A stretch of 45,877 nt of DNA from Bacteroidales bacterium (GTDB taxonomy: Bacteria; Bacteroidota; Bacteroidia; Bacteroidales; Bacteroidaceae). The translations under genes and the position numbers were made by a program. The first letter of the stretch is position 1. Each line of letters starts with the position of its first letter. Positions 9,877 to 42,845 of the stretch are shown piece by piece. Where the stretch lies: positions 1-45,877 of the forward strand of contig JALEZQ010000040.1 in NCBI GenBank assembly GCA_022772475.1, written 5' to 3'. Under the pieces are notes generated by a model. That model saw only the letters and a list, made by a program, of their open reading frames with translations, ran no database searches and was not told where the DNA came from.

Positions 9877-9890
9877 GCGCCGCGCCCCGC

Positions 9891-9959
9891 CCGGATAACC
9901 CGGATTCTCCGGATTCTCCGGAAACTCCGGAACATCCGGAACCTCCGGAAAAGCTCCGG
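9891..9959. repeat. 9-bp tandem repeat, CCGGANNNT type, intergenic
   Basis: Between the methyltransferase and peptidase genes lie about seven consecutive units beginning CCGGA, at 9891, 9900, 9909, 9918, 9927, 9936 and 9945. The first six are 9 bp and the last is 11 bp. The variable part is ATAAC, TTCT, AACT, ACAT, ACCT or AAAGCT. The same 9-bp unit occurs as coding sequence in the DUF349 gene (33960-34045). Confidence 0.85.
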
Positions 9960-24787: not shown

Positions 24788-25373
24788 ACGACAACTTGAA
24801 CAACTTATACAACAAAGAATGTTGTCTCCGTTGTTTTGGTTGTCGTGTTTATTTTTGTGGACGACAACTGGAACAACTTGTACAACCATCAAAGTTGTCT
24901 CCGTTGTTTTGGTTGTCGTGTTTTTATTAGACGACAACAGGAACAACTTATACAACAAAGAATGTTGTCCTCGTTGTTTTGGTTGTCGTGTTATAATTTT
25001 AGGACGACAACTCAAACAACTTGTACAACAAAGAATGTTGTTCTTGTTGTTTTGGTTGTCGTGTTATATTTTTTTGGACGACAACTTGAACAACCTATAC
25101 AACAAAGAATGTTGTTCTTGTTGTTTTGGTTGTCGTGTATTATTTTAGGACGACAACTCAAACAACTTGTACAACAAAGAATGTTGTTCTTGTTGTTTTG
25201 GTTGTCGTGTTATATTTTAAGGACGACAACTTGAACAACTTGTACAACAAAGAATGTTGTTCTTGTTGTTTTGGTTGTCGTGTTTTTATTAGACGACAAC
25301 AGGCACAACTTATACAACATAGCAGGTTGTTCTTGTTGTTATGGTTGTCGTCTCCAAATAATATGGTTGTCGT
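24788..25373 (+). repeat. Tandem palindrome array 1 (eight 59-nt units, ACAAC/GTTGT boxes)
   Basis: Eight units start at 24788, 24861, 24931, 25004, 25078, 25150, 25223 and 25293, a pitch of 70-74 bp. Each is a 59-nt imperfect palindrome: ACG, three ACAAC boxes separated by 4 nt, a 7-nt loop (often AAAGAAT), three GTTGT boxes separated by 4 nt, then CGT. Linkers of 11-15 nt are AT-rich and begin GTGTT or GTGTA. The 4-nt spacers vary while the boxes are nearly invariant, so the ends and boxes pair and the spacers form small internal loops. An extra right half-arm ends at 25373. The frames crossing it give only Leu/Val/Phe repeats and are not genes. It lies between divergent genes. Confidence 0.95.
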
Positions 25374-25379
25374 ATGACA

Positions 25380-25779
25380 TTGCACACTTGTCTGAAAACG
25401 TGAATCTCGTGGTCATAAATATTGACAAACTCCGCCGCGCAAACAGAAGCGAAAAGGCTTTGCGCCGGGCGAAAAACGCTAACCGGCGCCACTGTTAGGG
25501 CGACAGATTTTCCTGTTTGGGCGACAGAAAATCCTGTAACGCTTACAGTGGAGGCCAAATGGCCAACCCTCCACCCCGGCGACGAAGCCCCTTTTCGCGT
25601 GTTTTTCATAGAAAATTCAGTAGATTTAACAAAAGAAGCGAAGGCGACCTAAAAATATAGCAATATACTGTCAAAACCAACCCCTTCATGTTGGCGTTAT
25701 TTTCGTCCGCCCTATTTCCCGTAGATTTCAAGCCCCTTCTCGAGGTTAACGGACGTTAAAAGCCGTTTTGCACACGTCG
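25380..25779 (+). repeat. Conserved tail of composite element, copy 1
   Basis: This noncoding stretch directly follows array 1 and aligns colinearly with 42445-42845. It opens TTGCACACTTGTCTG (25380-25394) and ends with TTGCACACGTCG (25768-25779). Inside are two direct repeats GGGCGACAGA-TTTCCTGT-like (25498-25516 and 25519-25537) and the small hairpin CTGTAACGCTTACAG just after. Landmarks fall at a constant offset of 17065 bp from copy 2 (one nt off in part of it). A reading frame crosses it, but differences between copies are spread over all codon positions. Confidence 0.85.
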
Positions 25780-33854: not shown

Positions 33855-35771
33855 ATGGACGAAACCAAGCAAACCCCCATCGAAGAAAACCAGATAGAGG
33901 CCGCCGCACAGACGGCACCCGAAGCCGTGGAAAGCGTAGCCGACGCAGCAGAAACTGCGGAAGCCCCGGAAACTGCGGAAGTTCCGGCTGCCCCGGAAAA
34001 TCCGGAAGCTCCGGAATCTCCGGAAAATCCGGACGCCCCGGAAACCGCCGAAGCCGCCCCGCGCAAACCCTACGCCACCAAGGCCGAGGTGCTGGAGCGC
34101 CTCAAGGAGATGGTCCTCTCGGGCGAAGTGCCCGAGCGCGCCGAAATGGAGCACCTAAAGCAGGCCTACTACCGCCTGCGCATGGCCGAGACAGCGGCCG
34201 AACGCGACGCCTTCATCGCCGCCGGCGGTGAGGCCGAAGCCTTCATGCCCGCCGCTGACGCCGACGAGGAGTGCTTCAAGGCACAGATGGGACGTCTGCG
34301 CGAAATTCGCGCCAAGGTGCTTGAAGAGCAGGAGAAGGAGCGTCAGGCCGCCCTCGAACGCAAGGAGGCCATCATCGAGCAGATTAAGGCCATGGCCGCC
34401 ACGCCCGAAGATGCCGACAAAAACTACGACGCCTTCAAGGCCCTCCAGGCCGAGTGGAAGGAGATAAAGAACGTTCCTGCCGAGAAGGCCACCGAGCTCT
34501 GGAAGAACTACCAGCTCTACGTCGAGCAGTTCTACGACCAGCTCCGCCTCAACCACGAGTTCCGCGCCTACGACTTCAAGAAAAATCTGGAAATCAAGAC
34601 CCGCCTCTGCGAGAGCGCCGAGAAGTTGGCCGAACTCTCCGACCCCGTCTCCGCCTTCCACCAGCTCCAGCAGCTGCATCAGGAATACCGCGAAACGGGT
34701 CCCGTGGCCAAAGAACTGCGCGAAGACCTGTGGAAGCGCTTCAAGGACGCCTCCACCGTCATTAACAAGCGCCATCAGGAGCACTTCGAAGCCCTCAAGA
34801 GCCGCGAAGAGGAAAATCTGGCCCTCAAGACCGCCCTCTGCGAGAAGGTAGAGGCCATCGACACTGCCGCCCTCAAGACCTTTGCCGACTGGGACGCCAA
34901 GTCGCAAGAGGTCATCGCCATGCAGCAGGAGTGGAAGACCATCGGCTTCACGCCCAAGAAGATGAACACCAAAATCTTCGACCGCTTCCGCACAGCCTGC
35001 GACGCCTTCTTCACCGCCAAGACCGCCTATTTCAAGGCCACCCGCGAAACCCTCTCGGCCAACTACGCCGCCAAGATAGCCCTCTGCGAGAAAGCCGAAG
35101 CCCTGGCAGAAAGCACCGACTGGAACGCCACGACGAATAAGTTTGTCGCCCTCCAGAAAGAGTGGAAGACCATCGGCCCCATCAGTCACAAGCAGAGCGA
35201 AGCCGTATGGAAGCGCTTCAACAACGCCTGCAACGCCTTCTTCGAGAAGAAAAACGCCGCCACCGCCGGCGTGCGGCAGGAAGAGGAGAGCAACCTGGCC
35301 AAGAAAAACGAAATCATCGCCGCCCTCGAGCAGATGGCCGCCGAGCCCGAGAAAGCCGTCATGGCCGACGTCAAGGCTCTGCAGGCACAGTGGAACGAGA
35401 CAGGACACGTGCCCTTCCGCAAGAAGGAACGCATATACAAGCGCTACCGCGAAGCCTGCGACCGCATCTATGGCGCACTGCACAGCCACGCCGGACGCCG
35501 TAACCTCGAAAACTTCCGAAAAGGCGTGGCCGACAAGGGGGGCAACGAACTGCAACGCGAGCTCAACCGCCTCACCGGTGCCCTCGAGGCCAAGAAGCAG
35601 GAGGTGAAAAACTACGAGACGAACCTCACCTTCCTCAACGCCAAGTCGAAGGGCGCCAACGCGCTGGTGGACGACATCAACCGCAAACTGGAGCGCCTCA
35701 AAGAAGACGCCGCCATGCTGCAGGAGAAAATAAAGGCCGTCCGCGAGAAAATGGCCGACGAAAACAAATAA
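33855..35771 (+). CDS. DUF349-repeat coiled-coil protein
   Basis: A 638-residue, highly charged helical protein. Residues about 1-75 are a disordered acidic segment rich in Pro, Glu and Ala with PENPEAPESPENPDAPET-type repeats. From about residue 150 there are several DUF349 repeats of about 70-80 residues, each with a Trp-containing core: FKALQAEWKEIKNVPAEKAT, AMQQEWKTIGFTPKKMNTK, ALQKEWKTIGPISHKQSEA and ALQAQWNETGHVPFRKKERI. The C-terminus is a coiled coil (about 570-635). Proteins of this type are conserved in Bacteroidetes. I know no firm function; a cytoplasmic scaffold or nucleic-acid-related role is guesswork. The N-terminal repeats are encoded by a 9-bp CCGGAANNT unit also found in the intergenic repeat at 9891-9959. 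Confidence 0.9.
   Translation: MDETKQTPIEENQIEAAAQTAPEAVESVADAAETAEAPETAEVPAAPENPEAPESPENPDAPETAEAAPRKPYATKAEVLERLKEMVLSGEVPERAEMEHLKQAYYRLRMAETAAERDAFIAAGGEAEAFMPAADADEECFKAQMGRLREIRAKVLEEQEKERQAALERKEAIIEQIKAMAATPEDADKNYDAFKALQAEWKEIKNVPAEKATELWKNYQLYVEQFYDQLRLNHEFRAYDFKKNLEIKTRLCESAEKLAELSDPVSAFHQLQQLHQEYRETGPVAKELREDLWKRFKDASTVINKRHQEHFEALKSREEENLALKTALCEKVEAIDTAALKTFADWDAKSQEVIAMQQEWKTIGFTPKKMNTKIFDRFRTACDAFFTAKTAYFKATRETLSANYAAKIALCEKAEALAESTDWNATTNKFVALQKEWKTIGPISHKQSEAVWKRFNNACNAFFEKKNAATAGVRQEEESNLAKKNEIIAALEQMAAEPEKAVMADVKALQAQWNETGHVPFRKKERIYKRYREACDRIYGALHSHAGRRNLENFRKGVADKGGNELQRELNRLTGALEAKKQEVKNYETNLTFLNAKSKGANALVDDINRKLERLKEDAAMLQEKIKAVREKMADENK
33960..34045 (+). repeat. 9-bp coding tandem repeat (CCGGAANNT type)
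   Basis: About nine consecutive 9-bp units starting CCGGAA (two degenerate) encode Pro-Glu-X repeats near the N-terminus of the DUF349 protein. The unit is essentially the same as that of the noncoding repeat at 9891-9959. A multiple of 3 lets copy number change without shifting frame. Confidence 0.85.
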
Positions 35772-42024: not shown

Positions 42025-42431
42025 ACGACAACAGATACAACTTATACAACATTGTCTGTTGTCCCCGTTGTTTTGGTTGTCGTGTTATAATTTTAGGACG
42101 ACAACTCAAACAACTTGTACAACCAAGAATGTTGTTCTTGTTGTTTTGGTTGTCGTGTTTTTATTAGACGACAACAGGAACAACTTATACAACGTTGTCT
42201 GTTGTCTCCGTTGTTTTGGTTGTCGTTCTAAAATATACACGACAACTCAAACAACTTGTACAACAAAGAATGTTGTTCTTGTTGTTATGGTTGTCGTTCT
42301 AAAATTACACGACAACTCAAACAACTTATACAACAAAGAATGTTGTTCTTGTTGTTTTGGTTGTCGTGTTTATTTTTGGGGACGACAACTCAAACAACGA
42401 GGACAACTTTCTTGGTCGTACAAGTTGTCGT
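42025..42431 (+). repeat. Tandem palindrome array 2 (six units)
   Basis: Units begin at 42025, 42098, 42168, 42239, 42309 and 42382, a pitch of 70-73 bp. They have the same 59-nt plan as array 1: three ACAAC boxes and three GTTGT boxes at a 9-nt period around a 7-nt loop. Unit pairs with their linkers recur between arrays; for example, the AGGAAC-type left arm follows the GTGTTTTTATTAG linker in both. The last unit is degenerate and 50 nt long, exactly one 9-nt box period shorter. The orientation and the following tail are as in array 1. Confidence 0.95.
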
Positions 42432-42444
42432 GATACAACAATTA

Positions 42445-42845
42445 TTGCACACTTGTCTGAAAACGTGAATTTCGCGGCCCAAAACGTGAAGCGCCCTCGC
42501 CCTTCAAATAGACGCCGAAAAGCACGGCGGCGGGCGAAAAACGCAATCGGCCGCCACAGATTGGGCGACAGAAATTCCTGTTAGGGCGACAGAAAATCCT
42601 GTAACGCTTACAGTGACCGCCCAAACGCTTGCCCTTCGCCGCCTTGCCGAGCCCCCTTTTTGGGCGTTTTCTAAAGAAATTTTAGAGGATTTAACTACCC
42701 GATGGGGTAGATATATGGTTTGCGCAGTATTCTGTCAAAATCAAAGGCCGCGTGCTTGCGTTATTTCCGACCGTGGGGGAACGAGGTGGGTTTTGTGGGC
42801 ACTCTCAAAGTTAACATGTGTGAAAGGCGTGATTGCACACTCGTC
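42445..42845 (+). repeat. Conserved tail of composite element, copy 2
   Basis: It opens TTGCACACTTGTCTG (42445-42459), nearly identical to copy 1 over the first 33 bp (two differences), and closes with TTGCACACTCGTC (42833-42845). The distance between the two TTGCACAC motifs is 388 bp, as in copy 1. The paired GGGCGACAGAA repeats lie at 42563-42581 and 42584-42602, followed by CTGTAACGCTTACAG (42599-42613). No gene is supported. Confidence 0.85.

Follow-up and report, generated by a model that had tools for sequence, protein, structure and literature searches.

The window analysed here, a 45,877-nt stretch of a Bacteroidales draft genome (contig JALEZQ010000040.1), carries two arrays of a palindromic unit of strict geometry, in which boxes of the RACAAC type recur every 9 nt in two inverted arms around a short centre, and the same design occurs in patchy bursts in other Bacteroidales. 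In gut and rumen Bacteroidales these elements resemble insertion elements of a type not yet described. The units are tentatively interpreted as a dispersed non-coding palindromic insertion element that would act at the DNA level and carry phased recognition boxes; both its recognition by a protein and its mobility are what we infer from the observations below.

The eight palindromic units of the initial annotation were all recovered in array 1, with 0 mismatches in 288 box positions. Each unit is 59 nt long, starts at position 24788, 24861, 24931, 25004, 25078, 25150, 25223 or 25293, and agrees without mismatch with the pattern ACGACAAC-N4-ACAAC-N4-ACAAC-N7-GTTGT-N4-GTTGT-N4-GTTGTCGT; the unit-to-unit distance is variable (70-74 nt) rather than a single period. 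With a slightly shortened pattern the window had 13 matches, compared with an average of 0.00 over 100 shuffles, and in the 13 window units the boxes are indeed constant while the spacers vary, as had been proposed, with departures from the column majority at 0/468 box positions and at 63/299 positions of spacers and loops. The unit scan of the window tolerated up to 10 substitutions, so that decayed units were detectable, and one such unit was found (starting at 42382). The draft genome of the window (2.38 Mb in 104 contigs, 86.8% complete) contains 89 units at up to 3 mismatches, with 0 for a reversed-pattern control, and several of its arrays sit close to contig ends. Array 2, a repeat of ~396 nt beside both arrays and two arrays of TCCGGA-type boxes with a 9-nt step had been overlooked initially (Table 1). 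Array 1 is flanked by an M15 peptidase gene on the minus strand and a TonB-dependent receptor gene on the plus strand (SusC-like), followed by a SusD-like gene, and array 2 by a TPR gene and gyrB.

Table 1. Features of the window, with positions on the forward strand, and loci of the unit copies that belong to the FKBP-like lipoprotein.
Feature	Position or locus	Strand	Basis
Array 1, eight palindromic units of 59 nt in head-to-tail order, AT-rich linkers of 11-15 nt	24788..25351	+	pattern match
Remnant right-arm end GGTTGTCGT, alone 3' of array 1	25365..25373	+	repeat family D2
~396-nt non-coding repeat adjoining array 1, TTGCACAC at both ends, 388 nt apart	25380..25775	+	
Array 2, five 59-nt units, same family as array 1	42025..42367	+	pattern match
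Sixth unit of array 2, shortened and decayed, 8 substitutions against the pattern	42382..42431	+	
~396-nt repeat adjoining array 2, TTGCACAC ends 388 nt apart	42445..42840	+	
Seven NCCGGN boxes (five TCCGGA), 3-nt variable spacers, between RlmL-like gene (ends 9876) and DPP IV gene (starts 9999)	9890..9949	.	
Seven NCCGGN boxes (four TCCGGA), 9-nt step, N-terminal part of DUF349 protein	33983..34042	+	
FKBP-like lipoprotein unit loci	L052/L243, L078, L093, L201, L077, L085, L255		

The conservation of the boxes acts on sequence and not on covarying pairs. Between loci of the window's genome (75 units from 15 loci, admitting up to 4/36 box substitutions and excluding the units with another loop length on contigs C12 and C15), identity was 0.973 in the boxes, 0.527 in the spacers and 0.485 in the loop. 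The initial view that conservation acts on the pairing of the blocks was not supported, since opposing spacers pair at the shuffled level (complementarity of 0.246 vs 0.250 +- 0.011 in the window's genome, and of 0.358 vs 0.400 +- 0.021 in 67 units from other genomes) and no covariation between the arms was found at the variable first position of the boxes (122 GC, 40 GT, 32 AC and 7 AT; Fisher p 0.53). At orthologous sites outside the window's genome, the spacers differed at 59/222 positions, and all 15 differences among 666 box positions fell on the free first base (111 such positions), the 0/555 differences in the core being so by construction, because the units had been picked by exact boxes.

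A loosened pattern of two outer boxes per arm and a variable centre, run on a species-level genome collection, retrieved the RACAAC-box design, with boxes 9 nt apart in inverted arms, from at least 105 stretches of 55 assemblies, so that the array is not restricted to one strain. Titles naming Bacteroidota accounted for 100 of the 105 matches listed; the remaining ones were two titled "bacterium" only, two from a Kiritimatiellae bin and one from Actinoplanes, a palindrome with complementary spacers that looks unrelated. One of the two titled only bacterium, L066, agrees in contig number and coordinates with G034, a congener of the window's genome. The genome counts require exact outer boxes and are lower bounds; they include overlapping matches, and copies may be missing from drafts. 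The element was found in 4/58 species of the genus to which the window belongs, with 97 matches for the window's own genome, 15, 8 and 2 for three congeners and 0 for the other 54, and in 15/200 genomes of the genus of G308 (titled Prevotella; up to 32 matches, the carrier used as the centre of the draw included in the 15). The window's genome was the sole carrier in an order-wide draw of 247 genomes, and also among 61 genomes searched with the stricter three-box pattern. Viral contigs contained 0 exact paired units and single three-box arms in at least 120 stretches, and array 1 gave no match by blastn against plasmids and phages.

Outside the window's genome, most units have three RACAAC boxes in each arm, with a step of 9 nt or, in some cases, 10 nt, and unit length overall is about 59-90 nt. 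Three-box arms without a partner numbered 6/398 in 1.09 Mb of loci, which were mostly chosen for holding paired units and were counted twice where overlapping. In many Prevotella copies the centre forms a short, perfectly paired hairpin, beside an A-rich stretch, whose sequence differs from copy to copy. The longest perfect stem of the centre averaged 5.35 vs 3.55 +- 0.10 in shuffles (71 units, 100 shuffles), with about a dozen of the 71 units reaching a stem of only 3, and at one common junction the stem showed a compensatory change from CTCGACC/GGTCGAG to CTCAACC/GGTTGAG (L181, L211). By eye, the box number differs by 9-nt steps between sister copies (L126, L180). Palindromes of heptamers, such as GTTTACA, GAGGTAC and GTGAATA, ~40-55 nt apart, were also observed (L053 1498, L106 3360, L064 5776, L120 2038); those at L053 1498 and L064 have 24-nt arms that are fully complementary, variant boxes included, unlike the GACAAC family.

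The 166 non-redundant units outside the window's genome include copies at 13 gene junctions common to several assemblies, so that copies at matching sites, initially named as possible support for function, do exist. The orientation of the centre was readable at 12 of the 13 (one by eye; two both at thyA), and it was opposite between species, relative to the genes, at four of these 12: thyA (L064/L086), L137/L208, L181/L211 and L181/L213. Independent insertion in two orientations would equally result in opposite centres. With respect to co-directional neighbour genes, the centre had the same orientation in 34 cases and the opposite one in 21. The gene contexts of the 166 units, which rest on simple open-frame calls, were ++ in 47, -- in 45, convergent in 31 and divergent in 26 cases, the rest being contig ends, and the median gaps between unit and neighbouring open frames were 33.5 and 36 nt. 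The opposite centres, the lack of a strong strand bias and the contexts favour an element that acts at the DNA level over one that acts when transcribed.

The ~396-nt repeat, found next to box arrays on C8, C20, C23, C30 (both), C55 and C79 as well, has no box arms beside it within the 3-kb stretches from C2 and C46. Its TTGCACAC ends are direct, not inverted, and GGGCGACAGAAAATCCTGT repeats lie inside; on C2 the far end is TTGCACAG instead of TTGCACAC. In 8/8 two-ended copies (two in the window and those on C2, C8, C15, C23, C46 and C55) the distance between the end motifs is 388 or 389 nt, and the mean column identity in an alignment of 8 copies, one of them cut, was 69%. Copies were assigned to the loci L016, L018, L024, L032, L033 and L180, and cut copies to L017 and L028. 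A structured RNA was rejected for this repeat, with a weak consensus fold and an unfavourable covariation term. In the window, no Rfam family reached the gathering score, and the Rfam search of 16 related loci returned tRNAs only; a permissive scan gave weak matches, all below gathering scores, and a known RNA was rejected accordingly. Intrinsic terminators (a GC stem-loop plus a T tract) were sought at both window arrays, with 0 terminator-like sites there and 1.0 and 0.7 in shuffles.

Besides the intergenic copies, an open frame passes through 24/166 units and runs at least 100 codons further, some of these frames being spurious. In the window's genome there were 34 strand/frame reads of units, of which that at L027 runs antisense to a gene, and none of the 34 is counted here as an in-frame copy. 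In seven genomes the unit contributes, in frame, to the signal peptide of an FKBP-like lipoprotein encoded behind glyS (Table 1). Among 30 glyS loci taken from a 60-genome glyS search, 2 hold the unit, one of them being the query genome, and five others hold different repeat palindromes at this place. By eye, the leader and the signal-peptide start of the FKBP-like lipoprotein 3' of glyS form inverted repeats whose sequence differs by species (L244-L247, L252), and in some of these the start codon sits between the inverted-repeat arms. In murF, the loop that separates AIVDDKD from IILVDDCLQTFKD is occupied by the unit in three genomes (L210/L273, L182, L214), where the gap measures 93-99 nt; E. 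coli MurF (1GG4) is shorter in this loop than the unit-bearing MurF, by about 27 residues. Of 30 murF loci taken from a 100-genome murF search, one belongs to a carrier, the loop gap is 18-30 nt in 11 and 33-108 nt in the others, and four of the 30 have gaps of 87-108 nt without a GACAAC unit. Other repeats seen in the murF loop by eye were TCTAGA-type boxes at 9 nt (L297, L301), a CTAGGAAAA repeat (L293), 7-nt repeats (L295, L287, L294) and C-rich palindromes (L280, L299); the long loops of L278 and L286 show no clear repeat by eye.

Candidates for a gene driving the element were also considered. The Y1 transposase family PF01797 was present in 13/17 carriers vs 10/21 non-carriers, with no match in the carriers G308 (32 element matches), G316, G079 and G034, the absence being weak for G079 (84% complete) and G034 (75% complete); a RAYT/IS200 driver was rejected, as PF01797 tracks the element only loosely. 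On contig C45 (L022, 1300-2400) a Y1 gene of the IS200 type lies ~180 nt from a solitary unit, which by eye lies within an outer inverted repeat of ~16 nt. This neighbour was taken as coincidence because the other 19 Y1 loci (about 2.0-3.4 kb each) are without a box arm. The idea of the arms as ends of a larger transposon was disfavoured, since solitary arms are rare in the loci studied, and a recurrent neighbour gene was rejected, the open-frame clusters of L034-L138 being housekeeping genes at common sites or broad families. No clean alignable empty site with a target duplication was found at the glyS and murF loci.

The same step of six fixed and three free bases occurs with other hexamers. 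TCTAGA boxes at 9 nt were found in 37/100 genomes of the G308 Prevotella genus, in a scan for three boxes with up to 1 mismatch in which overlapping matches count one array several times, and the matches per genome reached 209 (control 8), followed by 85, 68, 55 and 45 (controls 0 or 1). Arrays of this type (NCTAGN) in 16 loci have up to 13 or more boxes and are intergenic or within open frames; NCTAGN boxes in 9-nt steps, from 3 to 13 or more, were noted in L303-L314, L297, L301 and L091. TCCGGA at 9 nt gave 53 matches in the window's genome, overlaps counted (control 0), and occurred in 14/58 species of its genus; of the window arrays of this type, that in the DUF349 gene may be simply Pro-Glu coding repeats, and L320 has TCCGGA-type boxes at a strict 9-nt step. 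Viral contigs contained four-box arrays of the TCTAGA and TCCGGA types in 4 and 9 stretches, and phased boxes of ACTAGT, ACGGAT and CCCATA were each noted at a single locus. In 58 loci chosen by protein and not by repeat, hexamers present three times numbered 17 at period 7 and 7 at period 9 (expected at most 0.1), with at most 2 at any other period of 8-14. An inverted partner was nearby in 6/24 of these period-7/9 arrays, self-palindromic boxes included, so that tandem phasing is wider than palindromy. For this reason the 17 heptamer arrays were set apart from the GACAAC finding. Between Prevotella genes, heptamers that recur in tandem and vary at one or two bases were observed (L276 2874, L297 1434, L282 1079, L249 697 and others), some of them, by eye, adjoining TAnnTTTG, which we take to be a promoter-like motif; they are possibly slippage-prone promoter spacers.

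The families shown as dispersed are GACAAC, TCTAGA and TCCGGA, and the non-palindromic GACAAC occurs as inverted arms, which makes the whole block reverse-complement symmetric. It is conceivable, though on balance doubtful, that these families represent a Bacteroidales class of dispersed arrays that share a single geometry, in which a hexamer specific to the lineage recurs every nine bases with three left free, and the hexamer alone changes by family. Such a class, if real, would point to an enzyme or modular protein family, with a nine-base step and a six-base specificity able to evolve, by which the arrays are made or kept, also within essential genes.

Each element has two inverted arms around a short centre, and an arm usually holds three RACAAC hexamers, one per 9 nt. 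According to the proposed mechanism, these boxes would serve as recognition sites of a putative protein that reads six bases and skips three, either as tandem dimers or as an element-processing enzyme. The reading of six bases with three skipped is suggested by the boxes being kept as sequence at a fixed step, a two-fold complex or hairpin formation by the inverted arms, and fold-back or cruciform processing by the opposite centres together with the hairpin centres. The centre would be exposed as a hairpin or cruciform and there processed or copied, tandem duplication would then produce arrays like those of the window, and the host would tolerate the copies at harmless places, such as short intergenic gaps, signal peptides and a variable surface loop. 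TCTAGA, TCCGGA and probably ACTAGT would be sister families that share the 6+3 step but differ in specificity. An insertion element is indicated by the patchy bursts and by the in-frame copies. Against it stand the missing empty site with a target duplication at glyS and murF, the search for a driver gene, which found none (the Y1 counts above), and the junctions common across species, which speak for long residence. Most copies within a genome differ in spacers and centre, and thus no recent burst is visible. The in-frame argument is lessened by the murF loop, which is tolerant anyway, as its long gaps without a GACAAC unit show, and the phased tandem repeats without inverted arms that are common near Prevotella genes mean that the pattern may be partly a general slippage habit.

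Of the roles suggested initially, a binding array and a recombination site are both conceivable, the latter also in the form of an insertion element, and an insertion element carrying binding boxes is favoured here. Fixed arrays bound by a host protein, that is, selected and non-mobile operator or nucleoid/partition sites of a tandem-dimer protein, are an unlikely explanation. Ribbon-helix-helix proteins, which bind repeats of 7-11 bp, are an analogue for such box binding, and both the boxes kept as sequence without pair covariation and the copies at the same junctions in several species agree with it; however, the lack of a match in 54/58 species of the genus and in 185/200 genomes of the Prevotella genus would be strange if the boxes served as a basic nucleoid or partition site, copies lie in frame within murF and signal peptides, and the variable hairpin centres are left unexplained. 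That the units are a functionless by-product, left in intergenic DNA by replication slippage together with fold-back template switching and not recognised as sites, appears quite unlikely, in spite of the phased tandem repeats of many sequences in the Prevotella loci (17 at period 7, 7 at period 9), the 9-nt-step differences in box number between sister copies, and the opposite centres and perfect centre hairpins that fold-back events would give. Template switching predicts complementary opposing spacers, which were observed at or below the shuffled level, and the recurrence of one hexamer at many loci per genome and in different families is not explained by it.

The multi-hairpin RNA, also among the initial suggestions, has been weakened by the inverted centres at common junctions, the 34 vs 21 strand split and the in-frame copies. 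A transcribed element acting as a terminator, mRNA stabiliser or small RNA is improbable, even with the six units/strands that fold stably as RNA (z-scores from -4.2 to -9.4), the closeness of the units to genes and the excess of one centre orientation with co-directional genes, because no terminator-like site was found at the two window arrays, 26/166 units lie between divergent open frames, the centre is opposite at 4 common junctions and the arms are without covariation.

The initial impression that the layout has no described bacterial counterpart held, both by Rfam (no family at the gathering score in the window) and by a literature search with few terms in open-access titles and abstract starts, in which no description of the phased-box layout was found. 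The attC sites of integrons are imperfect palindromes with boxes, unpaired spacers, a variable terminal hairpin and an RYYYAAC/GTTRRRY core. The present units are likewise imperfect palindromes with boxes, unpaired spacers and a variable centre hairpin, but by inspection their ends ACGACAAC/GTTGTCGT do not fit this core. MITEs are marked by terminal inverted repeats of a parent IS and by a target-site duplication; in the loci studied, solitary arms that might represent IS ends are few (6/398), and the glyS and murF loci offered no empty site that could be aligned. REPs are described, in the part of PMC3733652 considered, as 20-40 bp elements with a GTAG or CGTC tag; the units resemble REP/BIME arrays in being intergenic, palindromic, patchy and sometimes clustered, but the tag occurs in 0/13 of the 59-nt window units on either strand, and Y1 (RAYT) transposases do not track the element. 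The BrickBuilt MITE of Porphyromonas gingivalis is, according to part of PMC4596501, dispersed and intergenic, with an inner array of 23-nt direct repeats, conserved flanks and terminal inverted repeats; the arrays in the window's genome resemble it in often adjoining the ~396-nt repeat, which differs by its direct TTGCACAC ends in place of terminal inverted repeats. The Rickettsia palindromic elements (RPEs), short palindromes of 105-146 bp, lie between genes and in frame inside conserved protein genes (PMC2229807, in part), as the present palindromes do (murF in three genomes, the FKBP-like lipoprotein in seven), whereas the present units are about 59-90 nt long, have hexamers at a 9-nt step and occur in Bacteroidales; phased hexamers are not mentioned for RPEs in that part of PMC2229807. 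The 250 palindromic RNA candidates from human microbiomes reported in PMC8040213 may overlap with these units.

Dispersed palindromes shape bacterial genomes, and they affect assembly and annotation too, with arrays near contig ends and inserts that alter predicted signal peptides. The strict hexamer-plus-three geometry, common to unrelated hexamers, makes the mechanism testable via a box-reading protein. The element works like RPEs and partly like REP/BIME arrays and BrickBuilt, yet for each of them it lacks defining features among those that could be tested. In-frame insertion into genes, which PMC2229807 (in part) describes for Rickettsia and some further small mobile elements, also occurs in Bacteroidales of the rumen and gut, where the sites concerned carry different repeat families in different species.
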